A stretch of 37,951 nt of DNA, taken from assembly GCA_026394765.1 (NCBI GenBank), contig JAPKXQ010000087.1, forward strand, positions 1 through 37,951. The letters are read 5' to 3'. The stretch is from Methanomicrobiales archaeon (GTDB lineage Archaea > Halobacteriota > Methanomicrobia > Methanomicrobiales > Methanospirillaceae). The position numbers were made by a program, and so were the translations under genes. Positions 1,277 through 5,951 of this stretch are shown piece by piece. Position 1 is the stretch's first letter. Each line of letters starts with the position of its first letter. The notes under the pieces are model-generated. The model ran no database searches. It was given only the letters and a program-made list of their open reading frames with translations, and was not told the origin of the DNA.

Positions 1277-2487
1277 CGGTTCACTCCTACACCACTTTCT
1301 ACCGCAGCCTCCCGTACTGCCTCCCCCACCACGCAGGTCATCTTCCTGTCGAGGATGCTGGGAAGGAGTCGGTCACGCCGCGGCCTCTTCACGTACCCCG
1401 CGATCGCGTGCGCTGCAGCAATCTTCATCTCGTCGGTGATCCTTGTTGCGCGTGCATCGAGCGCTCCGCGGAAGACACCCGGGAAGGCAAGGGCATTGTT
1501 GATCTGGTTGGGTAAGTCACTCCTCCCAGTCGCTACAATCGCCGCGCCTGCCTCCCTTGCCAGATCAGGCATGATCTCAGGGACAGGATTTGCCATTGCA
1601 AAGACGATCGGCTCTGGTGTCATAGCCCTCACCATATCCCCTGTGATGATCCCTGCTGCAGAGACCCCGACACAGACATCAGCCCCCTTGAGCGCATCGG
1701 TGAGACCTCCCGTCCGGCCTGCATGATTCGTCTCGTCGGCCAGGATGAACTTGTACTTGTTCGCATAGAGCCCCTCTCGATTGCGGTGTATTATCCCCTT
1801 CCTGTCGCAGACGATGATCTCGCGAACCGTCTCACAGACGTCGGGCCTGTACCCGATGCGGCGGAGTAGGCGGGCGATAGCATACCCTGCCGCACCAGCA
1901 CCTGATATCACGACATTTAAGTCTGAAAAGTCCTTTCCGGTCACCCGGCATGCATTGAGAAGTGCAGCGAGGACCACGATCGCTGTGCCATGCTGGTCGT
2001 CATGCATCACCGGGATGCCGATCTCCTGGAGGGACTCTTCCACCTCGAAGCACTTGGGGGCGGCGATGTCCTCCAGGTTGATCCCCCCAAATACCGGGGA
2101 GATGTTTCGGACCTCGTCTACGAAGTCGGTGTGGTAACTCTCAAAGCAGATCGGGACTGCGTCGATCCCGGCAAACTTCTTAAAAAGGGCAGCTTTTCCC
2201 TCCATCACAGGGATCGCGGCATAACCCCCGATGTTGCCGAGCCCCAGGACTGCAGACCCGTCAGTCACGATCGCGACCGAGTTCCCTTTCATTGTGTATC
2301 GGTAGGCGAGTGAGCGGTCCTGCTGGATCGCCCTGCAGACCGCCGCCACGCCGGGTGTGTATGCCCTCGCCAGGTCGCGCTTGGTAGTGAGCGGCACTTT
2401 CGCCCGCACCTCGATCTTTCCCTGGAACCGTGCATGGAGTGCGAGTGACTCCTCCCCAATCTCGCCTAGTCCGTCCTGTTCGCGCAT
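1273..2487 (-). CDS. NAD(P)-dependent malic enzyme (malate to pyruvate + CO2)
   Basis: The 404-residue protein matches the short prokaryotic malic enzyme without the C-terminal phosphotransacetylase domain. The catalytic tyrosine is in ARAYTPGVAAVC (Y43) and the catalytic lysine in VMEGKAALFKKFAG. The metal ligands fall in CFEVEESLQEIGIPVMHDDQ. The nucleotide fold shows as ISGAGAAGYAIARLL. It would decarboxylate malate oxidatively to pyruvate in the cytoplasm, linking the partial citric-acid pathway to pyruvate. A GGGGGT sequence lies five bases before the ATG. The first 22 bases overlap the 3' end of the PolB2 gene upstream, and the stop overlaps the next gene by four, so it is embedded in a run of coupled genes. 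Cofactor preference cannot be read reliably. Confidence 0.92.
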   Translation of the reverse strand: MREQDGLGEIGEESLALHARFQGKIEVRAKVPLTTKRDLARAYTPGVAAVCRAIQQDRSLAYRYTMKGNSVAIVTDGSAVLGLGNIGGYAAIPVMEGKAALFKKFAGIDAVPICFESYHTDFVDEVRNISPVFGGINLEDIAAPKCFEVEESLQEIGIPVMHDDQHGTAIVVLAALLNACRVTGKDFSDLNVVISGAGAAGYAIARLLRRIGYRPDVCETVREIIVCDRKGIIHRNREGLYANKYKFILADETNHAGRTGGLTDALKGADVCVGVSAAGIITGDMVRAMTPEPIVFAMANPVPEIMPDLAREAGAAIVATGRSDLPNQINNALAFPGVFRGALDARATRITDEMKIAAAHAIAGYVKRPRRDRLLPSILDRKMTCVVGEAVREAAVESGVGVNR

Positions 2488-4565
2488 GAGTACCCCCGAA
2501 AACTCCCGGGACTTCCTTTCGATACTGATACCTCCACGCCTCTTCCAGTTAAACGTGGCGGGGGTACTATGGTTCCATGTCCCCCGGGTGCACCTCCCCT
2601 GTGCTCACTGGCTGATCTGAGTACGAAGGCGACCTCTTCCCAGGCCTTGGTGAGGAGGCCACGGTAGTAGGTCAGGTCAAAAGAAGTGGCCTCATCAGCA
2701 AGAACCACTTCCCAGCGCCCCGCATCGGTGACGACGTACTCGATTGCCATCCCGGGTGCGAGGGGGATCCCACGGGCCGTGCAGGCAGCCACTGCCGAGG
2801 CCTCGGCGCAGCGGCGATGGTAGGTGAGCCTGCTCACCTGGCGGCGGATGGAGAGGTCGCGGGGGTCTGCAGATGGGAGCGCTTCCCAGACGGCACGGTA
2901 CTGGGCCACCACCTCCCAGGCAAGGGCGCTGATCTCAGTTGGAGTCCGTGCCTGGGCCATGAGGGCAAACAGACCCTCCTGCGTCTCTTTGATGAGGTGA
3001 GGTGTGTCGTGCCGACGTGCCAGGACACCCCGCAGACGCATCCTGCCAGACGTGAGCTTTCCCACGTAACGGGTATACGATCCAGTCCCATCGGCCAGGG
3101 GGTAAAAGGCGATCCAGTCGTATGCCTCGGCCTCCAGTGGGAGTCCGGTCTTCTCCTCCACGTGGCGGGCGGCATCTCCCACGCTTCCACCCTGCAGCCA
3201 GAGGCAGTCAATAATACCGTGGAGGACCTTGCATCCATCAGCCTGCGCGATCTCCCTGGCATCGAGGAGGATCTCACGTGCCCGTGATGTGATCGCCTCG
3301 TGGACTTCGATCCCCCCGAATTTTGCGTTCCGAAAGCCCGTGTACCCAAAAGAGGTGACGAGCATCCACTTTAAGATCGCATCGCTCCCGGCATAACGGG
3401 AGTCGTGCTTCTTTCGTGCCTTGGTCTCTTTTCTGAGTGCGAGGAGGGGGGCCAGGATGGTGGGGAGGAACCCAGGCCTCCACTGGTCATGGACTGTCTC
3501 GGGAGAGAGGTTGGACTGGACGATGATGGACGGATAGAGGGAGGTGAAGTCGATCTGGGTTACTGCAGGGTAGATGCCGGGCTTTGGCTGAAAGATAAGC
3601 CCACCCCGGTCCGCGGCGCGGAGGTCTTCAAAGGTACGGAGGGACTCCGGGTCACCCTTCCGAAACGGGACGGCGATGCCACTGCGGATCGCCATGGCGA
3701 CCTCGTAAGAGGAGATGAGGGTTCCGGCGCTGAACCTTGCAGCGAGGTTGGGGGGTATCCCAGTGAGGCGTGATGCAAGGATAACCCCTGTAAGGCCACC
3801 CTCACGGTAGTTGAAACTCTGTGTCGTGTCGATAACGACCCTTCCTTCGGGGATGAGGGCACCGCCCCGGTGGACAGTCCTCCCATAGCTCCAGTAGGAC
3901 TTCTCGGTTAGCCGCCGGTACCGCCCGCTTCGGCTGATCGGAAGCGTAAGGCCACAGGCACGGGCACGGGCGAGGAGGACCGGGGTCCAGAGGTCGCCTG
4001 AAGGGAAGAGGACGAGGTCCGGGTCCTCTGCTGCAAAGACGCTGCAGAAGTCTGCGATAACCTCCTTCTCATGCCCCTTGAGTCTGATGCTCTGTTTGCC
4101 TTTTACTTCCATCTCGGTGATCCCTGCCTCATGTGAGGGGGTCCCCGGGACTTTGATCTCCATCACAAAAAGAGGGATTGGGAAGTCAGGGGAGAAGCGC
4201 GACTCCCCGGGGTAGCTGCAGAGGTCGATTCCCCTGGGAATGAGACAGCGCTGCTCGGCCCTGATGTCGACGTCATAGAGGTCGGCCCCGTACCCGGTCT
4301 GCTCCTCAACTGCGAGGGCAGTGTCCCGGTCTGCATGGATGCGGTACCCCTCGCGCTCCCCGTAGAGGGTCCTGAACCGGCACTCCTCGACCTGGTGGAG
4401 GGCTGATATCGCGTCGACCATCTCCCAGTGGTCGTGGGGGTTTTGAAGATGGAGGAGGAAGGAGGGCTGGTATGGGAGGGTCTCGTTCACGAGGGTGCCG
4501 CACCGGTCCCGCCCCCAGACCTCTACGCCGCCCCTCCTCGGACAGGCGTCAAGGATCCACATCAC
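2466..4565 (-). CDS. polB2: Family B DNA polymerase, PolB2/Dpo2 type (degenerate active sites)
   Basis: The 699-residue protein has the family B polymerase palm, but its key motifs are altered. Motif A is intact ([10 protein letters not shown], residues 339-348). Motif B is a variant (K399...SFGYTG, about 399-410). Motif C, normally YGDTDS, reads HGIIDCLW (449-456) and keeps one aspartate, D453. In the exonuclease domain the Exo I motif, normally DIE, reads VMEIKV (134-139) and lacks the aspartate, so proofreading is probably lost. This pattern fits the archaeal PolB2 family, once predicted inactive. A Sulfolobus member (Dpo2) has been reported as a damage-induced error-prone polymerase. The last 40-odd residues look low in complexity. 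The gene overlaps the 78-residue gene upstream by 17 bases and malic enzyme downstream by 22. A replicative role is unlikely; a damage-tolerance role is inferred. Confidence 0.88.
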
Positions 4566-4785
4566 GTGCCTCCTGGAGTTTCAGCACCTCGATGAGAACT
4601 GAGAAGAAGGCAGCCTCGAGGGGGTCATCGAATGCATAGAACGCCTCACTCGTGTGAGCCTTTGCCATTGCCGCGAGGCGCTCCACGCACTCCCGCTCCT
4701 CCCCGGCAAAGCACCGGGCGGTTCGTGCCCAGCGGTCGGCGATCTTATTGACCTCCTGGCGCACGCTCGGGACGCTGCGGCCCAT
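4549..4785 (-). CDS. Small helical protein of the PolB2 cassette, function unknown
   Basis: This 78-residue acidic, almost entirely helical protein sits between the 176-residue gene (1-base overlap at 4785) and polB2 (17-base overlap). Such overlaps imply coupled translation and matched amounts. It has no membrane segment, no metal site and no recognised domain. The most distinctive part is the stretch around residues 44-70 (HTSEAFYAFDDPLEAAFF, then a leucine-rich helix), which looks like a protein-binding surface. The base composition and frame quality match the neighbours, so I take it as a real gene. It could be an adaptor or subunit of the polymerase, which is inference from context only. 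Confidence 0.72.
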   Translation of the reverse strand: MGRSVPSVRQEVNKIADRWARTARCFAGEERECVERLAAMAKAHTSEAFYAFDDPLEAAFFSVLIEVLKLQEARDVDP

Positions 4786-5315
4786 CAGAACCCCTCCAGG
4801 GTGGTCTGCCCAGTTGAGTGTGCCCGCAGGCGGCGGGCTGAAACAGGACGGGGATTAGCGCGAGCACGGTGCAGGGGCTCATGTGTACCGTAGTGGAAGA
4901 CCCGGTCTGCACGTTTCGCGAGGAGGTCGAAGGTGGGGTCGTGGTTGGGTGCGTAGAGTATCACCAGGGAGTCTGTGGCGGCGTCCTTGAGCGCCTGGGA
5001 GGAACGGACTGTCACTGCAGGCCCGGCTTCCTCGTAGAGCGCAGGGTCGTGTTCGACAAAGATGACGGTGTGGTGGGCACTGCGGAGGAGGGTAAGGAGC
5101 TGGAATGCAGTGAAGGCCCGCTGTACGTCAATATCACTTGAATGACGGTTGATCCCCGCAAGGAGCCTGGAGTAGTTTCCGCTCACGTAGAGGAAGAGGA
5201 ACTTCCGGACTGCACATGTATTGTTGAGCGCAGCGCCCATCATCTCCAGGGGTGCGACGATAGCACAGAACGACCCTGTGGAGAGGGAGAGGGTGGGTGC
5301 AAGATCAAACTCCAT
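4785..5315 (-). CDS. PolB2-cassette protein with possible degenerate RecA-like fold and C-terminal PCNA-binding-like motif
   Basis: This is the 176-residue first gene of the PolB2 cassette. The central part alternates hydrophobic strands and helices: HTVIFVEHD at residues 82-90 looks like a Walker-B strand, and TDSLVILYAPNHD (114-126) and RADRVFHYG follow. This is reminiscent of the RecA/KaiC/Rad51 core, but no Walker A (GxxxxGKT) is present, so any such relation would be to an inactivated paralogue. Residues 150-168 are basic and likely disordered. The protein then ends GQTTLEGF, which fits the archaeal clamp-binding pattern QxxLxxF at the very C-terminus. It is presumably a scaffold bringing the cassette to PCNA. 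The ATG at 5315 has no ribosome binding site, but a TATA-like element lies about 26 bases upstream, suggesting a leaderless mRNA. Confidence 0.7.
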   Translation of the reverse strand: MEFDLAPTLSLSTGSFCAIVAPLEMMGAALNNTCAVRKFLFLYVSGNYSRLLAGINRHSSDIDVQRAFTAFQLLTLLRSAHHTVIFVEHDPALYEEAGPAVTVRSSQALKDAATDSLVILYAPNHDPTFDLLAKRADRVFHYGTHEPLHRARANPRPVSARRLRAHSTGQTTLEGF

Positions 5316-5337: not shown

Positions 5338-5347
5338 CTATTAAGGG
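5338..5347 (-). promoter_or_regulatory. TATA-like element, probable leaderless promoter of the PolB2 cassette
   Basis: On the minus strand the sequence CCCTTAATAG is centred about 26-27 bases before the ATG at 5315. That is the archaeal TATA-to-start-site distance. With no Shine-Dalgarno sequence between, transcription would begin at or next to the start codon. The match to the TATA consensus is only fair. Confidence 0.4.
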
Positions 5348-5951
5348 TAGGGCGTGCGCAGTGTGAAAGTGAAAGTTAGGCACTCCTGCTCTTCCACCCT
5401 CATTAGATATGAGGCTCTGGTCAAGGGAGACCTTTGCAGAGATGGCGGCGATGTGACGGCCCTGGAACCTGGCGGCGACGAGCTAGTTCTCGCTTGGCCA
5501 TCGCTCATTTCCACCACCCGCATTGGTGGAAGCAACGAAAGAGCCCCACCGTGACCTCTTCAATCCGTGTCTGCCCCTGGGGAAACATGTAGGTGAGACC
5601 GACAATGACCATGCCATGGTGGAAGGGGGGTATGGAAGGATAATAGGGTAGATTCCTGGCTGCCATGCTGGGTGGCCGACCTGGTAAAGACACCCCAGAT
5701 ATTCCAGGGCGAGTGCCCCCCCACTTCTCCGGGGCCTCACACGGGGGTGTAATTTTAGGGACGCGACGCATGGTGACTTCTGCATCCTCCACTTCGAGGG
5801 CACCAACCGCTATCTCCCCGGTGAGACGGTTGAAATGTAAATAGAGAGTCCTTTCAGCCTTTAGAGGTCAGAAAAAGTGCCAGATTGGGAGATACAGCCA
5901 GGGGGACCACTCGTATCATAACGCGGGTGAAGAGTTCCCCAGTCCTCTTCA
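5348..5951. other. Gene-poor stretch of about 600 bases, possibly decayed coding sequence
   Basis: No intact gene can be supported here. On the minus strand some short pieces look protein-coding by composition, for example a frame reading LTGEIAVGALEVEDAEVTMR near 5765-5825 and another reading RHIAAISAKVSL near 5430-5470. They are in different frames, are interrupted by stops, and match no family I know. A decayed gene or non-coding spacer are both possible. Confidence 0.35.

Follow-up and report, generated by a model that had tools for sequence, protein, structure and literature searches.

A probable damage-inducible PolB2 mutasome operon in a methanogen shares a promoter element with recombinational repair genes

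A stretch of 37,951 nucleotides from a Methanomicrobiales archaeon of the Methanospirillaceae (contig JAPKXQ010000087.1, hereafter the window) carries on its minus strand an operon of three overlapping genes encoding iRadA, PPB2 and the family B DNA polymerase PolB2. Our analysis makes it quite probable that this operon encodes a damage-inducible PolB2 translesion mutasome and that it shares a promoter element with recombinational repair genes. The cassette itself is not new; taken alone it extends a published system to one further host. It is a methanogen copy of the archaeal PolB2–PPB2–iRadA mutation-making polymerase complex; the operon was described by Makarova in 2014 (PMC4104785) and the complete complex, including a C-terminal PCNA motif on iRadA, was modelled by Timinskas in 2025 (PMC11791011). 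The promoter element is not mentioned in the parts of these two papers that we read. The new part appears to be this conserved element, which is common to the operon and to repair genes in the same genome and which probably extends a motif reported in 2008 to a larger regulon. The host genome encodes McrA, and the organism is a methanogen. The features of the locus are as follows.

5364..5374, minus strand: 11-bp ultraviolet (UV)-response motif TTTCACTTTCA, an exact match to the motif of the UV-B-induced Halobacterium genes radA1, top6B, vng17 and vng280
5358..5371, minus strand: conserved promoter element CACTTTCACACTGC (consensus CACTTTCRCNCYRC), 56 nucleotides (nt) upstream of the iRadA start
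5338..5346, minus strand: TATA-like box CCTTAATAG, about 26 nt downstream of the start of the element
4785..5315, minus strand: iRadA, 176 amino acids (aa), ATG to TGA; predicted RecA fold from a structure model, no Walker A, PCNA tail QTTLEGF
4788..4808, minus strand: codons of the clamp-binding tail QTTLEGF (iRadA residues 170-176), from the translated open reading frame (ORF) and comparison of homologues
4549..4785, minus strand: PPB2 (arCOG07300), 78 aa, helical, with the N-terminal arm MGRS, R3 and R9; assigned from sequence signature and context
2466..4562, minus strand: PolB2 DNA polymerase, 698 aa, with IID in motif C, from an NCBIfam model and motifs; ATG 4562 is preferred over GTG 4565 as the start

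The promoter element is the feature that would tie the operon to DNA repair. Its occurrences were counted by pattern searches with a reversed-pattern control. When the sequences upstream of iRadA were aligned, each of the 28 family loci examined showed the element ACTTTC-R-C-N-C-C-G-C, at 55-60 nt from the start, and a TATA-like CTTAT follows about 26 nt beyond it, so that the core CACTTTCRCNCCGC is succeeded by a TATA-like box. The spacing of element, TATA-like box and start codon points to a very short or absent leader. With at most one mismatch, the element lies at positions -90 to -40 of iRadA in 42 of 51 loci overall and in 41 of 44 in the host's order, and elsewhere on the same strand of those loci there are only two matches in 238 kb. 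In the window, the 11-mer TTTCACTTTCA occupies 5364-5374, with its start 59 nt ahead of the ATG at 5315 and upstream of the TATA-like box, and this copy is the only one in the 1.83 Mb assembly. The pattern CACTTTCRCNCYRC has three exact copies in the same genome. Across the family the pattern matched 548 times against 50 for the reversed control (11-fold) and exceeded the control in 101 of 108 genomes, with about five exact copies per genome; enrichment over the control was likewise seen in the host's order. Genus g8 (G017 and G018), which has no PolB2, showed no exact copy of the element in its two assemblies, both of which are incomplete.

The genes that follow the element are strongly biased to recombination and repair. 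Of the three exact copies in the host genome, one lies upstream of the PolB2 operon, one 53 nt before an Orc1/Cdc6 paralog and one 63 nt before a gene for an RNase_H_2-type nuclease. Copies with one mismatch precede radA, RPA, mre11, a 148-aa gene with no assigned function and a 108-aa gene, and each of these target genes has a conserved counterpart elsewhere. The complete genome G015 has five exact copies, one each before RPA, RNase_H_2, iRadA-PolB2, a 137-aa gene and radA, and the 137-aa gene belongs to the same family as the 148-aa target of the host. Further targets in other genomes of the family are Nre, Mre11, RuvC and a lone PPB2 paralog. In other families of the order, the element stands before radA, RPA, Mre11, Orc paralogs, a gene for an rSAM_link_UDG protein, an integrase gene and 14 TnpB transposon copies. 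Haloarchaea-like genomes carry the variant TTTCACTTTCACTCCGC before genes for Hel308-like and Hef-like helicases, Hjc, RPA, ribonucleotide reductase (NrdJ), an Orc paralog and DUF371, and some sites in these genomes retain only the shorter CACTTTCRCNCCGC.

The motif has a known connection with DNA damage. Boubriak et al. (2008) found TTTCACTTTCA about 50 nt before radA1, top6B, vng17 and vng280 of Halobacterium NRC-1, all of which are induced by UV-B, and the same motif at radA of Methanospirillum hungatei and of haloarchaea (PMC2556686). The Halobacterium genes nrdJ, rfa3 and hjr are also UV-induced (PMC2556686), and relatives of all three carry the element in the genomes searched here. A text search of the literature for the exact 11-mer found, among archaeal papers, only Boubriak et al. 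(2008), and a search with fragments of the element led to unrelated papers; subscription journals lay outside this search. Because the element is common to the PolB2 operon and to repair genes, we predict that DNA damage induces the operon along with recombinational repair, and the data suggest that PolB2 belongs to an SOS-like DNA damage regulon. More tentatively, and with a chance that we put slightly below even, methanogens of the Halobacteriota and haloarchaea may share one such regulon, marked by TTTCACTTTCACNCYGC before the TATA box. It would comprise radA, RPA, mre11, Hjc/RuvC, Hef, Hel308, ribonucleotide reductase, Orc1/Cdc6 paralogs and, in methanogens, the PolB2 mutasome, and would be read by one trans-acting factor, possibly of the Orc1/Cdc6 type and related to the crenarchaeal Orc1-2.

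Several observations weigh against a damage-inducible PolB2 mutasome. Five of the six PolB2 operons of family f9 and those of family f21 lack an exact element, and no exact copy was seen at the PolB2 genes of haloarchaea-like genomes, where several matches lie inside genes or before genes that do not function in repair. Some other matches precede genes with no obvious role in repair (TnpB transposons, threonine dehydratase and a GyrI-like gene) or fall within genes. When one mismatch was allowed, the host genome gave 22 matches against 17 for the reversed control; the count is near the control, and therefore the support for the one-mismatch sites lies in the identity of the genes that they precede. 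On the side of the proteins, a Foldseek search with the PPB2 model found nothing significant, the best match being a sigma-factor domain (probability 0.89, E 0.26), so that the assignment of PPB2 is based on its sequence signature and context and has no significant structural match.

Three ORFs, of 176 aa, 78 aa and a family B polymerase ending at 2466, make up the operon in the order iRadA–PPB2–PolB2. An initial annotation, made from the sequence of the window, had described them as three coupled overlapping genes, and this holds for the window and for its relatives. The overlap of iRadA and PPB2 is 1 base, as had been stated. The second overlap had been given as 17 bases, which corresponds to the listed start GTG 4565, and is 14 bases from ATG 4562. 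In relatives the codon aligned with GTG 4565 is mostly not a start codon (GCC, GGC, CCG, TGC or ACG) and the next codon is one; therefore ATG 4562 is the likelier start of PolB2. In about 30 family loci, iRadA and PPB2 share 1 base or are no more than 3 bases apart, and nearly all of them keep the PPB2/PolB2 overlap at 17 (or 13) bases in the GTG-type reading. At its other end (window 2466-2600, minus strand), PolB2 extends about 40 residues past the end of most family members, and as a result it overlaps the downstream malic enzyme ORF (1273-2487) by 22 bases, which has the look of a shifted stop codon.

The association of the three genes is conserved. PolB2 is present in 97 of the 108 genomes of the host's family and in 58 of the 59 good ones, and PPB2 and iRadA lie directly upstream of it with the same overlaps in about 30 family loci, wherever the contig reaches. 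The operons of families f2, f3, f9 and f21 look alike, with three adjacent genes; in f5, f6 and two f1 loci, iRadA was present and no separate PPB2 was detected. This conservation is far beyond chance, since PolB2 occurs in 97 of 108 genomes and the small genes accompany it in nearly every locus long enough to hold them. A genomic neighbourhood search had been proposed as a check on the cassette, and its outcome does not refute the annotation.

The 176-residue protein has no sequence match in Pfam or the Protein Data Bank (PDB), and sequence searches of Pfam, NCBIfam and the PDB, a profile search among them, found no RadA. Its AlphaFold2 model (predicted local distance difference test score, pLDDT, 84; predicted template modelling score, pTM, 0.76) finds RecA, KaiC and RadA as the best fold matches in the PDB, with a probability of 1.00 and a template modelling score to the query of about 0.5. 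Walker A (GxxxxGK[ST]) is absent from all 38 homologues. Because the model matches RecA, KaiC and RadA and no homologue has a Walker A, this protein is identified, on the strength of its modelled fold, as iRadA, an inactive RecA-fold protein. The annotated C-terminal QxxLxxF motif is borne out as QTTLEGF, and QxxL lies within the last 16 residues of 36 of the 38 homologues; a PCNA motif of the same class has been reported at the iRadA C-terminus (PMC11791011). The annotation's comparison with ImuA-ImuB-DnaE2 set a RecA-like accessory beside a clamp-binding one; here both features are on the same subunit, iRadA. The 78-residue protein, near the roughly 80-90 aa of PPB2, is helical as annotated, with three long helices and one short helix in its structure model, and has no Pfam match. 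Its N-terminus, MGRSVPSVR, identifies it as PPB2. G2, R3, S7 and R9 are invariant in 29 homologues, and a similar MGRT-like N-terminal arm with Arg3 and Arg9 was described for PPB2 in 2025 (PMC11791011). Stand-alone PPB2-like genes (L107, L064/L114, L073 and L088) carry an element copy of their own, and L107, the only one in which the arm was read, lacks MGRS.

The polymerase scores 806.6 bits against a cut-off of 516 on the NCBIfam model NF004416 (PolB2-type family B), which agrees with the family given in the annotation. The motifs had been called degenerate; motifs A and B are intact and only motif C is changed. It reads GIIDCLW, where IID replaces DxD and Ile stands at the first Asp, and GIVDC in 29 aligned relatives; the second Asp is conserved. 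No Pfam model of the exonuclease domain reached its cut-off. A D(K/R) motif, preceded by a region of the type predicted to dock iRadA, is present in all 30 aligned PolB2 sequences. Saccharolobus islandicus PolB2 likewise has 401-IID-403. In Sulfolobales, Dpo2 carries this IID, yet is active and needed for targeted mutagenesis, and damage induces the dpo2 gene (PMC11791011). Several relatives (G035, G036, G043, G067, G089 and G090) contain second, partial or broken polB2 matches. The host genome also has a Y-family polymerase (C82:7565-8014, L336), and no element copy was found at its locus with up to two mismatches.

Formation of the complex, its binding to PCNA and its induction by damage are what we infer for this methanogen. 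The mutasome would consist of one PolB2, one iRadA and probably three PPB2 (a predicted heteropentamer). Transcription would start from a TATA promoter that carries TTTCACTTTCACNCYGC, common to radA, RPA, mre11, the Orc1/Cdc6 paralog and other repair genes, and the overlapping genes would couple the synthesis of the three proteins co-translationally. A RadA-like oligomerisation motif that immediately precedes the DRGG loop may dock iRadA on PolB2, the N-terminal arm of PPB2 would lie between PolB2, iRadA and DNA, and the iRadA tail QTTLEGF would tether the complex to PCNA. PolB2 itself would extend damaged or mispaired primer ends.

The element might instead be a general feature of strong promoters, in the context of the B recognition element (BRE) and TATA box, with no bearing on DNA damage. 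The fixed spacing of about 26 nt before the TATA-like box would fit this, as would targets outside repair such as TnpB and the dehydratase. However, three exact copies in the host genome and about five per family genome are far too few for a general promoter feature, it is absent from the Y-family polymerase gene of the host, the targets show a strong repair bias, and the 11-mer was discovered through UV-B-induced genes (PMC2556686); we regard this explanation as improbable. A different proposal refines the damage-inducible reading rather than opposing it, namely that an Orc1/Cdc6 paralog binds the element, in the way that Saccharolobus Orc1-2 binds ANTTTC, and autoregulates its own gene. The invariant core ACTTTC fits ANTTTC, and the element occurs at Orc1/Cdc6 paralogs in the host genome, G002, G030, two f3 genomes and one haloarchaea-like genome. 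A hexamer match is weak evidence, however, most Orc genes of the family were found without the element, and those that bear it are divergent and fall into no single conserved clade, so they may be targets rather than the regulator. This proposal is possible, although we consider it rather doubtful. A conserved autoregulated Orc1/Cdc6 regulator was also tried against 30 Orc loci, where the element was near the start only in the host genome and G030 (exact) and in G019/G020 (two mismatches), and such a regulator is therefore kept only as a candidate.

Other explanations concern the function of the complex. According to the 2014 proposal, PolB2 is catalytically dead and the complex regulates the initiation or elongation of replication (PMC4104785). 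Loss of the first Asp of motif C and a decayed exonuclease are in line with this, but the conservation of motifs A and B and of the second Asp, and the active, mutagenesis-related Sulfolobales Dpo2 with its identical IID, make it very unlikely. The annotation had compared the cassette with bacterial ImuA-ImuB-DnaE2. What the two have in common is an operon that joins a RecA-like accessory and a clamp-binding function to a polymerase. However, one subunit here bears both the clamp motif and the RecA fold, a small helical protein takes the place of an inactive Y-family polymerase as the third subunit, and the published architecture parallels Pol V (UmuC-UmuD'2-RecA; PMC11791011). The comparison is therefore not upheld, and there is scarcely a chance that the cassette works in that way. 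Membership of the ImuA-ImuB-DnaE2 system itself was rejected, as the polymerase is of family B and not family C (DnaE2), and the third protein is a 78-aa helical protein rather than the inactive Y-family ImuB.

Some of the genes downstream of the element are of interest in their own right. A family of 137-160 aa proteins is among its most frequent targets (L119:339-818; L320, in the host genome C26:7259-7272); it has no match in Pfam or NCBIfam and is a possible new damage-response protein. The Orc1/Cdc6 paralog of the host (C73:2125-3264; L036:322-1461), with the element 53 nt upstream, is divergent and is a candidate regulator or target. In IS605-type TnpB genes (G153-G157), the element lies 27-78 nt before the start, which looks as though a damage-responsive promoter had been taken up by the transposons; the TnpB loci with the element are L191, L194, L196-L198, L205, L208, L209, L211, L214, L216-L218 and L226. 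A near match of the motif before the npa transposase was reported in Halobacterium (PMC2556686). Integrase genes (L160 and L314) also follow the element, with a long gap to the predicted start.

If the PolB2 operon is damage-inducible as we propose, error-prone PolB2 and error-free repair by RadA, RPA and Mre11 would stand under one element in methanogens. The motif, recorded a single time in Halobacterium in 2008, is probably the mark of a larger regulon. The 17-bp element and the list of target promoters provide a handle for finding the euryarchaeal damage regulator. Methanogen PolB2 is predicted to be damage-induced despite its missing first catalytic Asp.

The operon resembles the known archaeal PolB2 (Dpo2)–PPB2–iRadA system in gene content and order, the MGRS/T arm, the inactive RadA, the IID of motif C, the DR motif and the C-terminal PCNA motif of iRadA, and differs from it by the new host genus and the promoter element. 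Both papers on that system tie the operon to Orc1/Cdc6 and LexA neighbours (PMC4104785, PMC11791011). Like E. coli Pol V, for which the architectural parallel was proposed in 2025 (PMC11791011), it would combine a polymerase, a small oligomeric accessory protein with an N-terminal arm and a RecA-type partner; the polymerase family and the accessory fold are different, and the RecA partner is here inactive and dedicated. The element shares with the UV-B motif of Halobacterium the exact 11-mer, its distance of about 50-60 nt before the start codon and its place upstream of the TATA box, whereas here it stands on the PolB2 operon, has the 3' extension C-N-C-C-G-C and covers more repair genes, throughout one methanogen order. 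In Saccharolobus, Orc1-2 binds the DNA damage-responsive element (DDRE) ANTTTC (PMC9738581). The regulon proposed here is similar in its core ACTTTC, which fits ANTTTC, in the predicted damage induction of PolB2, as reported for dpo2 of Sulfolobales (PMC11791011), and in having Orc paralogs among the targets, but its conserved sequence is longer, lies about 26 nt before the TATA box and has radA, RPA and mre11 among its targets.

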